A DNA stretch of 64,000 bases. It comes from Daphnia pulex (lineage: Eukaryota; Arthropoda; Branchiopoda; Diplostraca; Daphniidae). The notes beneath the pieces were generated by a model, which was given only the letters and a program-made list of their open reading frames with translations, did not search any database and was not told where the DNA came from. The first letter of the stretch is position 1. The number at the start of each line of letters is the position of its first letter. Of this stretch, positions 2,833-44,747 are shown in pieces. The position numbers and the translations under genes were made by a program. The DNA lies in the NCBI RefSeq assembly GCF_021134715.1, contig NC_060019.1:124001-188000 (forward strand), read 5' to 3'.

Positions 2833-5800
2833 ATGTCGTTGCTAAAATCACTTGCCTTAAATCAGACTTTTGATAGTAATTCAGAGATTGTAGAGTTTAT
2901 TAAGCAGTTAGAGACAGAAAATGTATATTTGCGTCGTGGTCATTGTGAGTCAATTAGTAGTTACAACAATGACCGAAGAAATCAAATCGTACTTGACGAA
3001 AAGTTTGAGTTTAAAAGAATTCAATACATGTGCCCTCATTTTGGTACTCACAAATCACGATCAAAGGGTTCACGACTGAACCAAAATGTGATGCCAAACA
3101 ATTGTCCAGTGCAGATTAGATTTGTTTTTAATCCAGTTAGTGAAAAGTTTGAGATCAAGGTCTTGGAGTTGGAGCATAAAGACCACCCTGTTTCTGCGGA
3201 ACATGTCAAGACCTATGCAAGAAAAAGGTAAGATTTACTTTTACATTGGTTTCCAAATTTCATTAATGTGCTAGAACTATTTACTTTACATTCCGTGTGA
3301 TGTAATAAGGTTTTGTTGTATGTTCGATTAAATGATTGGATTTCATGTTATATATTTCCTGGAATGACCTTGTCGACCTTGTTGCACGTTATTACAGGCA
3401 TATGAATGACGAGGCCCTTAGTTTCGCCAACGGTGCGCTTTCTGCCGGCGCTCAACCGACTAAAATTCGCAAGATTCTGCAAGATAAATTCGGTTCCAAT
3501 CTCATTAGCAAGGACCTGATTAATATGAAGCAGAAATTAATAGGTTAGCGAACACACTTAATTTTTGTAAAACCATTTTACTTGAACAAATCAAGGACAA
3601 CTTTTTTCTGTCATTAGGGAATTTGGAAGACGATTGGAGCAATTCAGTTAGCTTTCTTGATAGTCTACAACAAGATCCAAACAACGTCGTCAAAGTGCTG
3701 CACGACCCGGAAGGAGAAGTCACCGCTATTTTCGTGCAGCTAGAAAAGCAACGCAAACTGTACAAAATGTACGGCAAAGTCGTCGAGGTAGACGGGACTT
3801 ACAATATTGATCAAGCTGGATTTGCGCTGTATCATTTGCTGATAGAAGACAATAATGGCGATGGTCAACCCGTAGCTATGTTCTTCATTAGAGAAGAGAC
3901 AACGGAAGCGATTTCTGAATGCCTGCGAATATTTGCAGAGGTAATGACTGTCTAAATTAGATTTTAAGTGTTTCTTATAATCAAACTTGACTGTACCTAC
4001 AGAATAACGACGTCTCCATGACAAAAGTGACCATATCCGACAAAGACTGCGCTGAGATAGCCGCGTTGGAGAACTGCTTTCCTCATGGGGTTCACATCCT
4101 TTGTCAGTTTCACGCATTGAAGGCCGTAGACGTCTACATAAAGAAACCAAAGGACGGCGAACGCGTAGACAAAGAAAAAATCCACGAAATTATTAAACAC
4201 TTTCGTGCGGCTATGTATGCTGAAACGCAGGCTGATTTTGAAACAGCAAAAGCGTACCTGTTGAAACAAGGTGAATCGATAGTTAAAGATAATCTATAGA
4301 ATGTATTAAAAATGTGTACATACTTCATAGGTTCCGGACCAGGAAGTATTGCAGCATACTTCGAAAATAACTGGTTCAACATAGCCGACAAATGGAGTAA
4401 CCTTGGACGTCGAAATCTTCCAACGTTTGGTAACAATACCACCAATCGTCTTGAACGGTAAAACACGCTATTAAATTTTCATTTACATCACCGATAACTA
4501 AATACCTGAATTACATTTTAAGATTTCACCACACTATCAAGGATGTCCTCCAGAAAACCAAGCGATTGTCAGAAGTTCTCCGCAATTTAATAGACATCGT
4601 TTTGATACGCCTTTCTGACCGAAAAATGAAACAGTGCATACGAGAGGTAAAATTCTCCAAGAAGGAAAAGCATCCGTTGATCAAAAAGTTTGCGGACACC
4701 ATCTCCCCTTTTGCTTGGGGCCATCTCGAAGCAGAACTGAAAATAATGAAAGAGAATTACAACTTCGTACTTAATGAGGTTAATAAATTGTTTGTTATTT
4801 TTTTAAATGGATCTAATTTATAAATTCTGCTTAGGAATCATCAACGTACCACATAGTTTCACGCTACACTACGTACAAATTGAAACAAGATCTCACTGGC
4901 TGCACGTGCAAGTTTTTCTTGGATTTTCAACTGCCTTGCCGCCACATTATCAACTTCCACATCAAAGAAAACACCGAAGTTCCAGTGGGATCATTTTCTA
5001 ATCACTGGTTAAATGAATGTCTGGAGGTAAAGCAAAGTTAAAATGATTATCGATAACTAAATTTATTTTTTAAACATTTATTTGTTACAAGAATGATGCG
5101 GTCGTTTCCGCAAGCGTTTCATCGCCATCTGGAGTTCAGCGTCCGAAAAAGACCCGGCTGCGTGCAACGGGGAAAAGCCAATATATCATGGCCACTAACG
5201 TTTTCCGTAGGATGGCCGACACGATGAGTGGACTAGCAGCCTCCGACTTCGAAGTCCAATTGCACTTCTTCCTTAACATTCACAAATTAATGAAAGAGGG
5301 GAAACTCCTTCGAGTAATGGAAGACGAGAAGCAGGAGACCGAGAATCCTTCGAACAACTCACTGGTTGATTCTCCGACTGTTGCGGAACGTATTGAAACA
5401 TCTACAGCAAGGACCAAGGCAAATATTTAAAACAATCGAACAAACATATGGTATTCTAACAAAAAATACCTTTATAGGTTTTTGCTCAACCTTGGGCATC
5501 GCTCCGTCTTCCCGTTGCCCCTGTTAAAAGAGGCAGGCCAAAACAGGACAAAGGATATTTTACTGCTTACAAAAAGAAGTCGAAGACAACGCGTGACGAT
5601 GTTTCAGTGGTGGATCCAGATCCAGATGAGAAGAACGTGAAGCCTAGGAAACGATTGAGAACAGAAAACGTAAGCAAATGTCTTATACATCCTAACAATA
5701 CGTATAATAACTGTACTGTGTTTCTCACTTTTGTTTAGATGGGTGGAATTATGAGCAGAGAGATGGAGGAAGTGCTAATTTTGGCTGAGGAAGAAGAACA

Positions 5801-7050
5801 CATGAAGGATTATTATAATCAAGATTCGTCATCACAGCTTCAGGAATTACCTAGTACATTAGAGGTAAACAAGTATTATTAATCCATTGAAAATTATCCA
5901 AGTTAATACTAATTGATCTTCAATAGATAACTATCGACGCTCCCATCATACCTACACCCAGCGTAGTTTCACCTGTAAACAAAACAGACGTTCGCATCAC
6001 CACAGCCGCTGATGTTCCACCAGTCGATGAAGTGGACGTGTCCATCATTGATCACAACTACACATTGATCACAACTACACCCAGCGAAGTTTCACCTGTA
6101 AACAAAACGGACATCAGCATCACCACAACCACTGATGTTCCACCTGTCGATGTCACACTGATCACAACTGCATTACCCGATAATTCTGTAGAGGTAACAA
6201 AATGATATTTGGAAGAATTTCAGAAAAATGATTCGAATTTCCTTACTTCCTTTAATAGCTTGTGTCTTCGACTGATGGTTGCCTCCGAAAAAACCGAAAT
6301 AGACGGGACAGGAGTAAACAACCCTATCTTTTCTTGGACAAGCCGCAAGTATTAACAAAGACGAACAAACTCATGTCAGGCGACATCAACAAGGCGCAGG
6401 CAATCCTGAAAAAGCAACATCCAGAAATAGGTGGTCTGTTCTGCTGTACAATTGGAGGCAGCCTTGAATTCCCCCGAGCGCAGGGCGATCAATGGTTGCA
6501 GATCGTTCATGACGGATCGGATCACTGGGTATTAGTTGCCAAAGGGTTTATTCAACGTGAACATGTACTGGTGTATGACAGCAGTCCCGGCAATCCATGG
6601 AGAAACGAGCATGTCCTAAGTTGTATGTCCAGTCTCCTCCAATCACCTGAAAAGGAAATGACATACATCATCAAAGATTGTCAACGGCAGAGCAATGGGT
6701 ATGATTGCGGGGTATTCGCGATTGCTTTTGCTACGAGCTTGGCATTCGGAGAAGACCCTGCAAAAAGAATGTATGACCCAAAAAAGTTACGCCCTCACCT
6801 TATTCAGTGTATGGATTCCGGCGAACTAACTCCATTCCCATCAGTTGAAAGTCGTGCAACAAGGACTCACGAGACTGTCGAAGCAGAATTATTGTATTGT
6901 ACCTGTCGCAGGACAGGCTGGGAGAAAAATGGATTTGAGTTTATCGGATGTGACACGAATGGTTGCGACGGTTGGTTTCACAAAATGTGCATCAATAATT
7001 GTCCTAAAGATATGAATGATAAATGGTTTTGTATTAACTGTCAATTGTAA
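2833..7050 (+). CDS. MULE transposase fused to SWIM, Ulp1-like protease and PHD domains
   Basis: Twelve exons (2833-3227, 3398-3543, 3618-3940, 4003-4270, 4331-4457, 4523-4778, 4835-5026, 5092-5418, 5478-5669, 5739-5864, 5927-6193, 6259-7050) sum to 1136 codons with no stop. Order: an N-terminal FAR1/FLYWCH-like zinc DNA-binding region (C-x-H, then C, then H near residues 75-125); the MULE catalytic core with VDGTYNI (first Asp), CQFH and NTTNRLE (probable catalytic Glu); a SWIM finger (CTC...CRH); an AT-hook-like KRGRPK and an acidic/Thr-rich linker; then in the last exon a C48 cysteine-protease domain (DHW His, VYDS Asp, NGYDCG Cys) and a C-terminal C4HC3 PHD finger. The exon 8/9 intron appears to use a GC donor (AAG|GCAAAT). 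Its role is to cut and move the element. The protease probably acts on SUMO-like modifiers, by family analogy. Confidence 0.85.
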
Positions 7051-7364
7051 CTGTCTCAAATAAACTTACTGTACAAAGAAATGTTGCTTATCACCATTCG
7101 TCCGTTTTCCCGCGCATACACCGACCAAGACACTGAGCAGCGTGCAAATAACAGCGGTGTCCTCACGAGTTTTCTATCGAGAAGACATGGCGACCTGGTC
7201 GTTTCCTTTTGATACGATCTACAGTCGATATAAGAGTTATTTTGACTTGGAGGTTGTAGGAAATTAGGCGTAAATCAACTACCATTGGCAGAATACATGG
7301 CCTAGCCAAAGTCATAGTAAATGACATCATTATGACTGGATGAAAGTCGAGGATTTTGGGATCA

Positions 7365-8090
7365 ATAATGTTGGAGAATCACCATGTACAGCAGAAATTT
7401 ATTTCCTATCATTCCCTCTTCATTAACACACCTATAAATGAGAAATAAGCATTGTTAATCAAACTAATTTCAAACACAATGTTCTATGAACCTGGTTACA
7501 ATCAGAATGCCATCGTAGAGTGTATGGCCTGCTGGAAATCACCAAGTACAGCAGAGATTTAATTGCAATCATTCCCTCTTCATTATCACACACCTATAAA
7601 TGAGAAATAAGCATTGTTAATCAAACTAATTTCAAACACAATGTTCTATGAACCTGGTTACAATCAGAATGCCATCGTAGAGTGTATGGCCTGCTGGAAA
7701 TCACCAAGTACAGCAGAGATTTAATTGCAATCATTCCCTCTTCATTAACACACACCTATAAATGAGAAATAAGCATTGTTAATCAAACTAATTTCAAACA
7801 CAATGTTCTATGAACCTGGTTACAATCAGAATGCCATCGTAGAGTGTATGGCCTGCTGGAAATCACCAAGTACAGCAGAGATTTAATTGCAATCATTCCC
7901 TCTTCATTATCACACACCTATAAATGAGAAATAAACATTGTTAATCAACTAATTTCAAACACAATGTTCTATGAAACTGGTTACAATCAGAATGTCATTG
8001 TAGAATGTATGGCCTGTTGGAAATCACCAAGTACAGCAGAGATTTATTTCCTATCATTCCCTCTTCCTTTATGCACACCATAAATATTAA
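7365..8090. repeat. Tandem repeat, about 4.3 units of 161-163 bp, in the MULE 3' part
   Basis: GTATGGCCTG recurs at 7522, 7683, 7846 and (as GTATGGCCTGTTGG) 8007, and each unit contains ACCAAGTACAGCAGAGATTT. The middle units are almost identical, while the first and last are diverged, as expected for expansion by unequal exchange. It sits between the transposase stop and the right terminus. No coding potential is seen. Confidence 0.9.
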
Positions 8091-8237
8091 ATGTTAATCA
8101 AACCAATTGACTAACGAGAAATTGCGAATCCAATTGAACGAGGCAATTGCGAAGAAAGAGGCAAAAAGTTTTAACGAGGTGATGAGAGTCAAAACACAGA
8201 ATCAGTCGTTATTTGATTTGCCATTCGTCGCCATAAA

Positions 8238-8349
8238 TTTCCGGAGTGCAATAGCCACTTTTGACGCTAGAGGACTCCGGACTCCGGAGTGTAATAGCCA
8301 CTTTTGACACTAGAGCGCTCCGGACCCCGGAGTGCAATAGGCGTGACCG
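8238..8349 (-). repeat. Right terminal inverted repeat of the MULE
   Basis: Inverted copy of 1513-1624 with the same 43-bp internal units, including the alternating GCGCTCTAGTGTC and GTCCTCTAGCGTC variants in the same order. That order shows the two ends are homologous across the whole composite repeat. Confidence 0.9.
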
Positions 8350-8680
8350 TTTTTTTCTCTTTTTCGTTCACAATAATGGCGCGCAACGGTTACTCCTGGT
8401 GGCAGTTTTGTGCAATAATGCTTGAAAAATAAAACACTTTTTTGTATATTTTAATAAGGTTATTGAAGTAAATTCATTACAGAAAATTTGGAAAAATTTA
8501 ATTCAATTGAAATTGCTTTATTTTATGACTAATTCTTCGATAAAATTGTATTTTAAAATTTTGATTGCAATTGTTGATTTGGCACTGTTGCTTTTTTCTG
8601 AAGTTTGAAAATTCTCTAGAATCGTCTTGTTTGAAGTCTGAGTGTCTTGTAGTTTGATTAGTTTGATTACTCGATTAAAT

Positions 8681-9421
8681 ATGAATAATTCACAAGAAAT
8701 GTCGAATGAGATATTAAAAATTGTAGAAGAAGCTTCTCAGAAAATTTTGAATTCTCATAAAACTACAGATGGGGATGATTCCATGTCGAGAACAGCTCAG
8801 CAGTTTATGGAAGTATGAAACACCTCTGCTTATTATCATGATTCATTCTAATTTGTTTGTTTCGACTTTAGTTGTTTTCAAAGAACTTGACAACAGCCAT
8901 TGAAATTGCTTTCGAAGGAGATGATGAAGCAGCAGCAGGCACAGAGATGAATTTAAAAGAAGGTAAAAACAACTTATTTTGCTATTGAGTATAACATCAA
9001 CATCTTCCAAGACCAAATTAAATTTTGCAGATGAAGAGGAATACAATGAAGCTATTGAGGATGTCATCTATAAACGAAAACAAGGAACCAAGATGTGCAA
9101 AGACGTCCTAGAGAAGACACTGGCCATTGAAAAGAAGGCAGCGGTATGTCTGATCTAATCTTTTATCTGATTCATTGGACTTGATGGTTACGTTGTTTGT
9201 ATCAGTTGGCTGTGGAGGTCAACCCAGGAGTAGTCAATGTGCAAGAGTTTGAGAGACAGCCAGTACCATACAAAAAAGAGGAACTCAAAGTTTCAACCAA
9301 GAAAACTTTGAGCAACATAAAGTCCTCTGCATTTAAAGTGCTTGATTTAAACCACCGGGTGGAAGAACTCGTAGAAGCCGCCAACATTATCTCAAAAGAA
9401 GTTGATGCTGTTGAATTTTGA
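8681..9421 (+). CDS. NSL1-like kinetochore (MIS12 complex) protein, probable
   Basis: Four exons (8681-8812, 8872-8962, 9031-9143, 9206-9421) give 183 aa with consistent phases. The protein is helical with no membrane segment. It has a KRKQ followed by a K-x3-LE-x3-T-x2-K helix (around residues 87-110) and a C-terminal helical domain. Both resemble NSL1, the MIS12-complex subunit that links the inner kinetochore to KNL1. Vertebrate NSL1 is longer (about 280 aa). Similarity is modest and judged by eye, so a different small coiled-coil protein is possible. Its 5' flank (8350-8680) begins right after the MULE terminus. The original upstream neighbour was probably the divergent gene starting at 1436. 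Confidence 0.5.
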
Positions 9422-33345: not shown

Positions 33346-36300
33346 TCAATCCGCAATTTCCCTTTCCAGTTGTTCCTTGATGTCGGACAAAGTTCTTGAA
33401 GGGGGGATTTGCGTCGAAGGTTTCTCATTGTATTTTTTGGCAATTTCGTTGTTGTAAGTGGTTAAAATGTATTCGCGCAATGGCAATTCTTCGTTGATGC
33501 GAGGATTTCTCCATCCGGGAAAGACCTTGGCATATTCTCTGTATAGATAAGAGACAGTCGAATCGTCAAGTTGAAATGTACGATCATCTTCGTAAGATTG
33601 ACTGCATGTCATGTGAACCAATTCATCAGTGTGTATGTAAGATAGTCCTGCAACTCCCCCTGGTTGATGGACTGCATCATGAGGTCTGTCTTGTGTGTCG
33701 TGATTGGCCGCTTCGATGCACAGACTCTTACACAATTGACAAAAAGCGTCGCATCGAGGCAAAGCTGCTTTATCGTTCACATCTTTCATATACTGGACCA
33801 CTTTTGGACTCAGTTGTTTTGAAAATTTGTTTTTATCTTTAATAGCTTCTTGCTTTTCTAGCACTTCAATTAATGTTTTCAAGCAGGTCTTTTGAAATTC
33901 CTCCTTCTCTTCGTTGTCGCAGTCTTCGTATTCGCCACTGCAATCGATTCGAAATGCCGAGCCCAAAATTTCGCTCTGCAAATAACCATCTAAAAATTCT
34001 TTTCGTAAATGATCGACAAAAGTTTGCGCTTTTTCTTTGTCGACTTCGACTGCTGCCGCTTTGCTAATTGCATCTCTCAAACGATTTTTGAAACTTCTCC
34101 ATTGTTCGTCGACGTGGGGGACCTTTTGAGCGATTAAGAGGTGGAGCACGTCTGCGTAAAACCACTGAGGATTTCTTAAATAATCGAGTACTTGATCCAG
34201 TTGATTTCTTTCCAGCAAGTCGATCAAATGGAGATCCATGTGCTTTTGCATGTATCTGGCGTCGTATAGCCAACGCTCGTTTCGAATTCTTCGACAAGTC
34301 CTCTGCACCATATCATTTTCAAATGCTGCAGAAAACAAAGAAAGAATTCAATTATTATTAGTTTTGTGGGTGATATAATTAAAATTACCTGGAATAATGT
34401 GTTCTTCCAATAAGTCTGCCATGTAAGTAGCGAACAGTTTGGTCTTTGCCACGCCATTTGACACCATCATGAAATAATACCAACGCAGATTTTCTTTGTT
34501 GGACTCGAGTTTCGCTGGCACAGAGTTCTCTTTTTCCCATTGATCTTGAACTTTCTTCATCAAATTGACTGTAAGTTCCATACCATACTGAAACATACTC
34601 TCAACAACGGAATTCTCACCAAGTTGGTGTTCGCTAAGTTTTGAATCTATTTCACGAATAACATGAGAAACTATGCTATTGTCATAACAGAGCGTCCCAG
34701 CTGTGATTCTGTTTACGGCGTCGTTAACAGAATCAGCACACATGTTGACGGGATTTTGTTTTTTCTTTTCTCTCTCATTGCCGTTGTCATTAATAAAGGT
34801 AGAACCAAGACGTTTTAAATATTCAATCAAGCCACTTGACTTTTGGTCTTTGTTATTCTTCCCTGCTGGCAGGTTTGGATCAATAGGGAGTTTATTAGTC
34901 CAATTTATTTCAATTTGTTTTTTCTTTATCACGCTGCTGTTCTGACACACTTGCTTTTATTTCACGTTGAACGTCTGTGCTAGGAAATTCATTTTTCGCT
35001 TCATCCAAGATTTTTTTGAACATGTCTTCAAATTTTTTATTCTTTTCATTGTCTTTCCAGTCGGTAACTTTTGAATTCTTGAAAAATGCGTTGATTTCCT
35101 GACGCATCTTTTTTTTGTATTCTTCCACACGATTGTCGTAATGGAACAGTGTATCGTAGGCGCTTTTCAGTTTCAATCTCCAATTAAAATCTTGGTCGTT
35201 CTTGTTGCGATCCCACATAATTTGAAATTGGAGTTGCCACTTTTCTTGGCCTTTTTTGTTCACCACGTCATCCACCGCTGTATTTAGTTCTACAACCGTG
35301 GCATGTATTTCAGCGCAAAGTTTGTCTTTGAAGTATTCAAAGGAATCTGACTGTTTTCTTTCTTGTTTACCTCTTTCTTCGATCGATTTTATCATTTCTT
35401 GTTTTACTTTTTTAAAGGACTTTTCGTAAGCCTCAGCCAATTTTCGTTCAATCCTTTTGTACTCCACACGATTGTCGTAATGGTTTTTCTGAATTGTGAA
35501 AAATTTGATTCTTGAAACAACTTCGGCCGATGAAATCCTCTCGTTGGGATTGGCCTTCAACATTTCCATGATGATCGCGTGCATGGGATGTTCTTTCATT
35601 TCTGCAATGAAATTTCACCCAGATGTAATTTGCTATTTCAATCTGGCTTATGATCATATCATGGAACTTACTTGGCATATTGACTGGCTCATTTTTAAAA
35701 ATGTTTGGTAGAACATTGATAGGTGAACCGAAAGGATGATCACCGCCTAATAGATAATAGCCGAAAACGAGTCCCGCGCTAAAAACGTCGCTCTTGACGG
35801 TTCCTCTTGGACGAATGTCGGGTGTTGTCGTCGTTGTTTTACCACCATTTCCTTCTTCATCAAATATCTTCAATATTTCAGGGGAATGTCAGTTGTGGGT
35901 TCCTCTCATTCCACTAATGGAATGACTTCCTGTTGGGTTGACTTGTTTGCTAAGTCCGAAATCGGCCCATTTCATTACGACTTTTTCTCCAGTGGTATCT
36001 ACCCAGATGAGAACGTTTTCGGGTTTGAGATCTCGATGGATCAATCCCTTTTCGTGAATGTGTTCCATTCCCTGGGCCAACTGGAGGCAAACTTCTTCAT
36101 CGGGAGGCATGAGTCCACGGTATTTTCCCGGTTTCTTGTCATCCAAGAATTTTTGATCCAGTGATGCCTGGCAAAATTCCAGCGCATAAATTCTGATTTG
36201 ACAGAACAAAATATTAGAGTTTTTATTTTTTTTTTCACTCGTAAATTTTATACACCTGAAATCGTGGTTGCTTTCAACGTGATAAAGTTTGACGACATTT

Positions 36301-36799
36301 GGATGATCTAATTCCTGTAGTGCTTCTTCTCCTCCTTTGTTGTTTTCAACGTTTTCGATTTGAATTCGCTTGACGGCCACTTTTCTGTTCATCCACGTCC
36401 CTTCGTAAACGATTCCGTAAGCCCCTTTCCCTAAAACCTTTTGTCTGTCGATAGAAATCGACAGCGAAACACTTTGGTGTAAAAAACAAAGAAACATATT
36501 TTTAAACCAATTGATTCAAATATAATTGATGAAAGTTAATAAAATATTCACTGTTTAGTTGGAAATATTTACATTTAACAAACTTTTACCTTACTCAACT
36601 TGTTACTGTAAAATTGTTATCTAAAACAAATGACGTAGCAATTCATTTCTATTGAAATCTGGCGAATGTGCCCCCAATTATCTTGCCCAATTTTATTCTT
36701 TTTGGTTTTGACTTAGACGTTGACGACTCTCTGATAGGCTAATCTAATTATTCAATCAATGTTTAAACTTGCACTACTTTACTTTGAATTGGTAGCCAT
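33346..36799 (-). pseudogene. Kinase K2 fused to a long helical region with a VLIG/GVIN-type C-terminus; in-frame stop and frameshift
   Basis: Exons 36799-36783, 36471-36256, 36192-35672, 35601-34389 and 34325-33346 (about 980 codons). The N-terminal 300 residues are an IRE1/RNase L-like kinase with intact GKGAYGIVYEG, VAVKRI, HRDLKPEN and ADFGLSK. After the terminal NERISS, about 400 residues are charged helices. The last about 270 residues include CDAFCQLCKSLC, clustered His, HQPGGVAGL, a Cys and YREYAKVFPGW, which is the Cys/His signature found at the C-terminus of vertebrate very large interferon-inducible GTPases. Two breaks: TGA at 35891-35889 replaces the Trp of the N-W-x-(A/S)PE motif conserved in K1, K3 and K4, and one extra A in an A6 run (34916-34921) shifts frame. 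The reading frame resumes cleanly after each. Pseudogene, polymorphic allele or sequence error are all possible. Confidence 0.7.
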
Positions 36800-39919: not shown

Positions 39920-40246
39920 TTGCCGATCAAAACTTGCCTTCCCGTCGGAAACCGGCCACGCCCCTTTCCAACAAACTGGGCTCGGCCGAATGAAGCTTCC
40001 GCCCCAGTGTGAATCAGATCATCCGCTCATAGGTTTTCTTTTTTGGTGTTCTTTCTTAAACTGATTGAGATGGTTGATCTATTTTTTGTGCCCACTAACT
40101 AACTAACCTAACCAAACAAAAGTCGTGGGTTACAAAATCCACGTTGAAAGTTTTGAAAAATTTATGAATCAAAAAAGAAACGCGAGCCAATGTCACGTCG
40201 TTGGTCGTTAATCCTCCTTCATTTTAAATTTCTCCTTGGGGAAATT

Positions 40247-40530
40247 TTAGTCGAAAAGTTTCTTGTTATATTTTTTGGCAATTTTGTTGTTGTACTCAGC
40301 TGAAATGTAGTCGCGCAATGGCAATTCTTCGTTGATGCGAGGATCTTGCCATCCAGTAAAGACCTCGGCAGTCTCTCTGTAGGAATAAGCGACAGCAGTC
40401 GAATCTGAAATTTCCTTTTAGGAAAAATGTACAGTCTTCTTCGTGATGAGATCTGTCTCCATGACATGCATCGACTGCATGTCGTGTGATCCAATTCCTC
40501 GGTGTTTGCATAATGCAGTTGGATTTTCAT
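40247..40530 (-). pseudogene. Relic of a K2-type C-terminal (VLIG/GVIN-like) domain
   Basis: With frame changes the minus strand reads ANTEELDHTTC, then YSYRETAEVFTGWQDPRINE, ELPLRDYI and NNKIAKKYNKK to a stop at 40247. This is colinear with the end of K2 (HTDELVHMTC, YREYAKVFPGW, NPRINEELPLREYI, NNEIAKKYNEK). No kinase is found upstream, so it is the stump of a lost K2-like copy. Confidence 0.7.
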
Positions 40531-41849: not shown

Positions 41850-42927
41850 TTAGTCAACATCATCAATTGTGAATAGTACTTTGAACGGGTCTGGTGATTG
41901 AAGCGCATTTTCTATTTCAGGGATAGTCTGTACACTGTCCTCGTTGAACATGATTTGAATGCCTTTAGAAGCTCTTTCACACGATTCTATCAACTCCTTT
42001 TGCGCTTGTTTTTTTTTTTTCGGGTTCGATGGCCACCATTCCGTGGATGTTCCTCAAAGGTCCCATGATGTAGCTGTTTGAGACTTTGACGTACGTGGCA
42101 GCGATGTGATGTGACTTGATGGACGTTTTCAGCAATTTCTTCATTGGAACGGTCATTACGAAATCAATAAAAAAAGTATCTTCTTGGGCATCTTTGGCAT
42201 GTTTGAGAAACATGTTTTGTTTTTTCGAAACTTTTTTTATGTGCTTGTTAAAGAATTGGAAGTACAGGGTCATACCAGCCCAATTTTCCTGCAATTCGCT
42301 AAGTAGTTTCATTCCGTCTTTTAAGATTTGCATTGGATCTGTACTGATGTCTTTTTCAACATGAATGTGCATATTTTTTAAACTTTTAGTGAACTCATCG
42401 CACATTTTTTTTATCTCCTTCTCGGATTTTTTCTGACCATTTATAGCTGCTTCTTGGCGCCTTTTTTTCTCCTCAATATTTGCATACATTGCATCTTGAA
42501 TCTCTTGCTCTTTTCTTCCATGGCTGGCCGACATCGCCAGCAGAACTTGGTTAATCAAATAACTCAATAAGTTGAAAGCGTCGAGTTCCTCCTCTGACCG
42601 TTTCAGTCCGTCGTCGGCTGCTTGTTTGATGCATTCCAGCCGTCTGGGCACCAATTTCTCTATGTCGACTTTGCTGTCGGATTTGATTATTGTGACGCAA
42701 TCTATTACATAAAAAGCCAACTGGGCCACCTGTAACTGAATCTTTTCCATGTTGGTATGCGCCTTCTTGAAAGCATTGTAAGCGTCGTTGACGATTTGCA
42801 CCAGAGTTGTGCGGAAACTGCTCGGATGTTTAATTAAAGGAATGTGCGTTTTGTCGATCTGGTCAATTCGGAAATCCGTCAACTGCGACGTGCGAATCAT
42901 CAGTTGGCTCAAGACACCGATGATCAT
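41850..42927 (-). CDS. Uncharacterised long-helix protein with a homopolymer frameshift
   Basis: From ATG 42927 the frame reads about 300 residues: helical, with two hydrophobic stretches (QLAFYVIDCV; FNLLSYLINQVLLAMSAS), a charged coiled segment (IEEKKRRQEAAINGQKKSEK) and WAGMTLYFQFFNKHI. It then stops at 41977, just after a run of 12 A (42009-42020). With 11 A the frame continues QAQKELIESCERASKGIQIM and on to an acidic end (FTIDDVD) at 41850, with better protein character. So an indel in the run is likely. The open frame also extends upstream to an AG acceptor near 43014, so a first exon may be missing. No family is recognised. Confidence 0.5.
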
Positions 42928-43227
42928 GGGGGCCCGAACAAGCTCATGCCACTTGGTGTCATCCGTGTCATCCTCGGTAGAAACTACACCGAGATAGTGC
43001 AGCTGGATATAACTATAATCAATATGAAAAGTAAAACAAATTAATCAATTCGTATAACGCAAATTTCGCATTAGACTTTGAACTTTGACTTGTGATATAA
43101 TTGCGCTACTCAATATGTAAACGTTTCATTTTTTAAAAAGTCATTTGCTTTTTGGACCATTTTGGAAAGTATAAGTCTATTTGGGGAGGCATGTAATACT
43201 CCCTCCTGCTAGTTGCAAAAGTGCTGT

Positions 43228-43360
43228 GTCGTATAAAGGCTGTCGGCCCCAGAACGAGTGCCTTCATTCACTTCTGCTGCAGATGGAGGAAGAATCAAAT
43301 GATAAAACATCGTCTCCTACAGTTAAGCTACATCAAACTTCAGGGAGCTGTACCCTTCAG
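43228..43360 (+). other. Orphan promoter and first exon
   Basis: GTATAAAGGC (TATA-like, 43228) lies 54 bp before ATG 43282. The frame MEEESNDKTSSPTVKLHQTS runs to a CAG|GTACTT donor at 43359. Downstream is the 3' end of K4, so no second exon is evident. It may be a 5' gene fragment left by rearrangement. Confidence 0.3.
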
Positions 43361-43422
43361 GTACTTTAAAATTGGAAATTTTGTTGCCAATTCCCAATGA
43401 TTGTTTGCAAAATTTGGTTGAA

Positions 43423-44747
43423 TTAATATAGCCAAATTCTTAACTGGAATTTTATCAAGTTGTTGATTCTTGTTACGACGTCGGCCGATGAAATCCTCTC
43501 GTTGGGATTGGCCTTCAACATGTCCACGATGATCGCGTGCATGGAAGGATCTTTTATTTCTGCAATGATGAAATTTCACCCAAATGTAATTTGCTATTTC
43601 AATATGGCTTATTTAACGGAACTTACTTGGCAGATTGACTGGCTCATTGTTGACAATGTTTGGTGAAACATTTATAGCAGAACCGAAAGGATGATCACCG
43701 CCTAATAGATAATAGCCAAAAACAAGTCCCGCGCTAAAAACGTCGCTCTTGACGGTTCCTCTTGGACGAGTGTCGGGTGTTGTCGTCGTAGTTTTACGAT
43801 CATTTTTTTCCTCTTCAATAAATATCTTCAATATTTCAGGGGAATACCAGTTGGGGGTTCCTCTCATTCCACTAATGAAATGACTTCCTCTTTCGCTAAC
43901 TTGTTTACTAAGTCCAAAATCGGCCCATTTCATCAACACTTTTCCAGTGATATCCACCCAGATGAGAACGTTTTCGGGTTTGAGATCTCGATGAATCAAT
44001 CGGTTTTCATGAATGTATGCCAATCCCGTAGCCAACTGGAGGCAAACTTCTTCATCGGGGGGCATGGCTCCACGATATTTTTTCGGGTTCTTCTCATTCA
44101 AAAATTTTTGATCCAGCGATGCCTGGCAAAATTCCAGCGCATAAAATCTGATTTGATAGAACAAAATTATTAAAGATATATTTTTTTTTCCTTTCGTAAA
44201 TTCTTTACACCTGAAATCAATGTCGCTTTCAACGTGATAGAGTTTGACGACATTTGGATGATCTAATTTCTGCAAAGCTTCTTCTCCTCCTTTGTTGTTT
44301 TCAACGTTTTCGATTTGAATTCGCTTGACGGCCACTTTTCTGTCCTTCCACGTCCCTTCGTAAACGGTCCCGTAAGCCCCTTTCCCTAAAATCTTTTCTC
44401 TGTCGATAGAAATCGACAGCGAAACACTTTGGTGCAAAAAAACAAAGAAACATATTTTCAATCAAATTGATTCAAATCTACTTGGTGAAAGTTAATAAAA
44501 TATTCATTGTTTAGTTGGAAATAATTAAATTTATTAAATTAAACTTGTTACTGTAAAATTGTAATCTTAAACAAATGACGTAGCAACTCATTTCTATGCA
44601 AATCTGGCGAACGTTCCCCCAATTCTCTTGCCCAATTTTTTTTCTTTTTTTGGTTTTAACTTAGACGTTGACGACTCTCTGATAGGCTATTCTAATTATT
44701 CAATCAATGTTTAAACTTGTACTACTTTACGTTGAATTGGTTGCCAT
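43423..44747 (-). CDS. IRE1/RNase L-like protein kinase K4 (the only intact copy)
   Basis: Exons 44747-44731 (MATNS), 44426-44211, 44147-43627 and 43559-43423 give about 296 aa with consistent phases. Complete kinase motifs: GKGAYGTVYEG, VAVKRI, glutamate-containing helix, ALEFCQASL hinge, HRDLKPEN, ADFGLSK, NWYSPEIL, SDVFSAGLVFGYYLLGGDHPFG, NERISS. The insert-rich activation segment and the ALE(F/L)C hinge resemble IRE1/RNase L. The protein ends shortly after the kinase domain, with no nuclease (KEN) domain, transmembrane segment or VLIG-like tail. The 17-bp first exon is supported by the same exon in K2. Predicted soluble Ser/Thr kinase, substrate unknown. Upstream about 500 bp is near-identical to K2's, so the two are recent duplicates. 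Confidence 0.8.

Follow-up and report, generated by a model that had tools for sequence, protein, structure and literature searches.

The window analyzed here, a 64,000-nucleotide stretch of Daphnia pulex DNA (positions 124001-188000 of contig C3 in a searched genome of 133 Mb and 13 contigs), carries on its minus strand, at 33346-36799, the exons of a kinase, helical segments and an ending of 326 residues, an arrangement that we call K2. Its features and those of its sister kinase K4 are the following:

36783-36799, minus strand: putative first exon of K2, an ATG at 36799 followed by a GT donor (K4 is arranged alike at 44747)
35889-36515, minus strand: first part of the K2 kinase up to a stop, with a probable intron at 36255-36193 (Pfam Pkinase, 3.8e-25; splice strings)
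35889-35891, minus strand: TGA stop within the K2 kinase frame, after the DFG motif and before SPE, the APE equivalent (K4 codes W there)
35484-35888, minus strand: K2 kinase C-lobe and tail, with a probable intron at 35671-35602 (splice strings; alignment of the tail to C8)
35463-35483, minus strand: 21 bp of filler where the kinase and VLIG parts meet (identical to 35144-35124)
35124-35144, minus strand: presumed source copy of the filler, within helical part A (alignment and repeat search)
34958-35462, minus strand: VLIG-type helical part A, corresponding to the stalk that follows the G domain, which is itself missing upstream (42% identity to C6a VLIG frame residues 898-1084)
34389-34956, minus strand: VLIG-type helical part B, in a frame different from that of part A (43% identity to C6a VLIG frame residues 1086-1281)
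33346-34325, minus strand: exon of the VLIG-type C-terminal domain, open, containing the Cys/His cluster and the stop (identity of 55-67% to the ends of six large GTPases)
33604-33753, minus strand: Cys/His cluster of that domain, from C192 to C241 (invariant in 7/7 copies)
43426-44461, minus strand: K4, the sister of the K2 kinase, whose kinase exons showed no lesion (tree support; translations)
43210-43539, minus strand: end of the K4 kinase, linker and a decayed start of the VLIG N-terminus (junction as at C8)
40237-40468, minus strand: VLIG C-terminal ending in decayed form, located downstream of K4 (75% nucleotide identity to the K2 ending, 232 columns)

The preliminary description had presented K2 as one gene running from the kinase through the helices into the ending, and this stretch is real, but its coding sequence is interrupted twice. 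The stop-to-stop frames comprise the kinase N-lobe (35889-36515) and C-lobe (35448-35888), helical parts A (34910-35614) and B (34348-34956) and the ending (33346-34347). An ATG was found at 36799, as were GT/AG strings at the proposed splice junctions (35672/35601 and 34389/34325), and the regions upstream of K2 and K4 share 89% identity across 516 columns. The catalytic motifs VAVK, HRDLKPEN and DFG are kept, but the catalytic domain does not run through uninterrupted, the TGA preceding the APE equivalent. The second lesion is a frame change near 34957, between helical parts A and B; an intron was considered as its cause and rejected, as inspection by eye revealed no GT..AG pair of plausible length.

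Kinase family and origin of the ending

To place the kinase, we compared the K4 kinase, which is about 80% identical to that of K2, with the PDB by phmmer. IRE1 occupied rows 2-14 among the best 60 of 444 (2e-16 to 2e-15), row 1 being an EGFR chain that scored over a repeated domain, and RNase L was not among these 60. An IRE1-like kinase family is thereby supported at the level of sequence. Unlike in IRE1, no KEN ribonuclease domain follows the kinase; the KEN profile PF06479 is absent from the window and was met at two places in the genome, on C1 and C4 (E <= 0.001). The kinase also differs from IRE1 in belonging to a large local family, the K4 query giving 161 exon-level matches, most of those listed on C3 and C11. 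Of the earlier label, IRE1/RNase L-like kinase, the first half stands, whereas the second can apply to the kinase domain at most. On C3, the kinases at L060, L061 and L066 are IRE1-like and appear by eye to be followed by long ankyrin-repeat frames, an order that we take to be the reverse of that in RNase L. KEN domain expansions are reported for Oikopleura and monocots in PMC3710099, where the Daphnia expansion described concerns another HEPN family, not KEN.

A search of the genome with the 326-residue ending returned 15 matches, namely K2, six full-length open copies on C6, C5, C7, C2, C11 and C12 (56-67% identity to K2) and eight pieces, which derive from another, broken copy on C6, from single copies on C8 and C5 and from the window relic. 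Residues C192, C196, C199, C203, H209, H216, H220 and C241 are invariant in all seven aligned copies. A VLIG-type large GTPase precedes all six full copies, and the order common to these loci is N-region, G domain, helices and ending. The C2 gene is a single frame of 1607 residues, ending included, those on C5, C6, C11 and C12 consist of frames of 1236-1296 residues and an ending exon, and that on C7 is split into shorter frames. The two frames scanned, from C2 and C6a, matched the Pfam family PF25683 (URGCP_GTPase) at 2.3e-63 and 8.2e-60, respectively. With a G-domain query we located seven loci in the whole genome, the six VLIG genes and C8, and no G domain in the window, where full C6a VLIG and C8 queries matched helices, ending, relics and kinase tails only.

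Because six paralogues carry it after a G domain, we assign the ending to the VLIG/URGCP-type large GTPase family; judged by these relatives, the K2 ending is of VLIG/GVIN/URGCP type. This agrees with the preliminary description, although the ending itself matched no convincing Pfam family (0 matches for K2; best of the seven members, 0.026). Its Cys/His residues and YxxYxxxxPxW signature may correspond to those that close vertebrate VLIG/GVIN proteins, the link to which runs through the GTPase domain. PDB searches by sequence yielded no VLIG structure, and for the ending no solved natural structure scored below 0.2; designed TIM barrels, the best rows (7e-4 to 3e-3), matched a helical stretch and were regarded as fortuitous. 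The want of a Pfam or natural PDB match is what one would expect of a chance resemblance, but such an ending would hardly be common to six large GTPases at the identities given above, nor share one 1607-residue frame with PF25683 on C2, and we regard chance as exceedingly improbable. Pattern searches yielded 79 matches in IMG/VR and 87 in GTDB contigs, with no relatives in either, and no match in phages. When the K2 ending was modelled from its single sequence, the predicted structure had a mean pLDDT of 38.6. K2 keeps the helical stalk and C-terminal domain of the local paralogues bearing PF25683 but differs from them in having a kinase in the place of N-region and G domain, and in being broken.

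The kinase-VLIG junction at C8 and K4

At the C8 locus, a related kinase (56% identical to K2 in the C-lobe, compared with 80% for K4) leads through a linker of ~40 residues into a VLIG N-region within one 331-residue frame, and G domain, helices and ending follow downstream with several breaks and gaps. The locus is decayed, and its linker frame could be open by chance. One gapped DNA alignment of K4 with C8 spans kinase tail, linker and VLIG start, and at this junction the usual VLIG start region, roughly the first 80 codons, is missing from both. None of the three copies of the putative fusion found in the assembly (K2, K4 and C8) is intact, but the K4 kinase alone could still work.

This junction bears on whether kinase and VLIG were always two neighboring genes in the same orientation, K2 having come to look fused through deletion of the space between them. 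Such an arrangement would be in keeping with the related kinases L062, L063, L064 and L065, which stop soon after the kinase tail (by eye; four of the seven related tails compared), and with the SNTX-ankyrin frame that immediately precedes the C6a VLIG frame but is separate from it. It is nevertheless harder to reconcile with a kinase-linker-VLIG junction common to C8 and K4, from which the usual VLIG start region is absent and through which the C8 frame is open, and with the other six VLIG genes, which have no kinase match in ~4-5 kb upstream (E <= 1e-3, K2 kinase queries). We therefore consider two permanently separate genes unlikely and favor a fusion of kinase and VLIG.

A second decayed ending, placed at 40247-40530 by the preliminary description, had been taken as evidence that K2 represents a repeated architecture. 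The ending is real and lies at 40468-40237, 3 kb downstream of K4 and upstream of K3 on the minus strand, but a separate helical frame (41977-43044) stands between it and the K4 VLIG relic (43539-43210); it therefore speaks for the repetition of an ancestral architecture, but not for a pairing of kinase and ending without GTPase. The helical frame itself, also on the minus strand, belongs to a family with 39 genome matches, many near kinase clusters on C3 and C11, and Pfam found nothing above cut-off in it.

A probable deletion scar, divergence and constraint

Alignment of K2 with C8 revealed how the two parts of K2 meet. K2 follows the C8 kinase tail to ...CAGAAAAAC, continues with the 21 bp identical to 35144-35124, and aligns with the C8 VLIG stalk from there on, without linker, VLIG N-region or G domain; the junction is in frame. 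The filler matches a site 339 bp downstream letter for letter and is the longest exact repeat in 2176 bp. A chance repeat was rejected as its source, since 200 two-base-block shuffles gave a maximum of 15 bp and never reached 21. We read the join as a deletion repaired with templated filler, and the missing GTPase appears best explained by loss through internal deletion, the direction of the change being inferred from relatives that have the G domain and not from an intact fusion gene.

Trees were built for both parts. The ending tree had nine rows, among them neither the K4 relic nor the broken C6 copy; it joins K2 to C8 with support of 100/99 and leaves the other five of six inner branches open. 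In the kinase tree (11 rows), K2 and K4 group at 97/98, and C8 is not placed with them to the exclusion of K3, whose distance from K2 and K4 is similar to that of C8 (dS 0.33-0.50). The K3 kinase tail carries no VLIG relic, and given this grouping K3 must have lost the VLIG part or never had it.

Nei-Gojobori estimates between K2 and C8 gave a dS of 0.35 and dN/dS of 0.48 for the pooled kinase parts (199 codons), and a dS of 0.29 and dN/dS of 0.54 for the pooled VLIG parts (468 codons); the similar dS values fit one unit copied together. Single pieces ranged from 0.20 to 0.45 in dS and from 0.37 to 0.79 in dN/dS, with part B at a dS of 0.25 and dN/dS of 0.59 in one comparison and without an open C8 frame in another. 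Among the six intact endings, pairwise dN/dS was 0.09-0.27 in 13 of 15 pairs, the other two being saturated, and the K2 ending gave 0.17-0.38 against five of these six (nearest C6a, dS 0.60), values to be read with many VLIG pairs near saturation. The dN/dS values, which stay below 1, and the presence of three long open frames suggest that K2 was constrained during part of its history, and part of it may therefore still be expressed.

These data also bear on the proposal, made in the preliminary description, that a working protein pairs the kinase with the ending in place of a GTPase. For this to hold, K2 would have to be intact in other individuals or species, with lesions private to this assembly. 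The preserved splice sites that were checked, the catalytic motifs, all eight Cys/His residues, the in-frame deletion junction and a K2-C8 dN/dS below 1 are compatible with such a protein. Against them stand the two lesions, one of them before the APE equivalent, a pooled K2-C8 dN/dS of about 0.5 that exceeds the 0.09-0.27 of intact VLIG endings, and the breakage of C8 as well. We judge a working GTPase-less K2 quite improbable, and the proposal is not supported in that form, the G domain having apparently been deleted and K2 being broken in this assembly. Because its GTPase part is missing and its sequence broken twice, K2, which joins a stress-type protein kinase to part of an immune-type giant GTPase, resembles what is left of a fused gene more than a working new protein. 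Lacking a G domain, its product could at most bind or recruit, and we make no claim of K2 activity because K2 is broken.

A probable broken kinase-GTPase fusion and its possible relatives

We conclude that K2 is probably an internally deleted, broken copy of a kinase-VLIG fusion gene, a reading to which we give a probability of roughly 0.75. An IRE1-like kinase gene without KEN would have been joined, via the ~40-residue linker, to a VLIG/URGCP-type giant GTPase gene lacking roughly its first 80 codons, a junction seen at the DNA level in C8 and in decayed form in K4. The relationships of K2 to C8 and to K4 suggest two duplications of this unit, one between C8 and the window and a further one within the window. 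At K2, where the junction is seen and its direction deduced, a deletion would have taken linker, VLIG N-region and G domain, with repair by a 21-bp copy of a nearby site preserving the reading frame. The stop and the frame change, both seen, probably broke K2 later, and all three fusion copies found would since have decayed.

IRE1-type kinases act through clustering. In its intact state the fusion would probably have linked clustering of the kinase with self-assembly of the GTPase on the surfaces of microbes, in the manner of the GVIN1 coat. Human GVIN1 is described in PMC11974893 as a giant GTPase of the VLIG/GVIN/URGCP type that forms such a coat. It is possible, and we propose it tentatively, that a Daphnia kinase-giant-GTPase fusion persists intact in some clone or related species, coupling kinase clustering and GTPase coat assembly in cell-autonomous defense, with K2 as its broken offshoot and the VLIG ending as a module reattached to other N-termini (the K2 kinase and an SNTX-type sequence at C5:8.88 Mb). 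If so, the intact fusion would represent an immune-type chimaera of a new kind, and it is on the kinase-GTPase fusion, not on the kinase-Cys/His pairing, that the interest rests. Among the listed titles and abstract beginnings (in one search, 30 of 45 papers), none concerned a kinase-VLIG fusion or crustacean VLIG genes. K2 as found represents genome decay with a readable repair scar, and the wider finding is a VLIG/GVIN-type GTPase family in Daphnia whose C-terminal domain is attached to at least two unrelated N-termini.

The SNTX-type gene at C5:8.88 Mb (L032:5903-8666) resembles K2 in that a non-GTPase N-terminus, here Stonustoxin helical and Thioredoxin_11 domains, runs in frame into a VLIG-type ending, which continues in another frame. 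It differs from K2 in its unrelated N-terminus and in a more distant ending, 38 and 44% identical to that of K2 (two pieces). At C6:1.36 Mb (L024:2367-4613 and 4896-8774; L025:2497-3400), an SNTX/MACPF-like and ankyrin frame directly precedes a VLIG GTPase gene, which is followed by a tandem broken VLIG ending.
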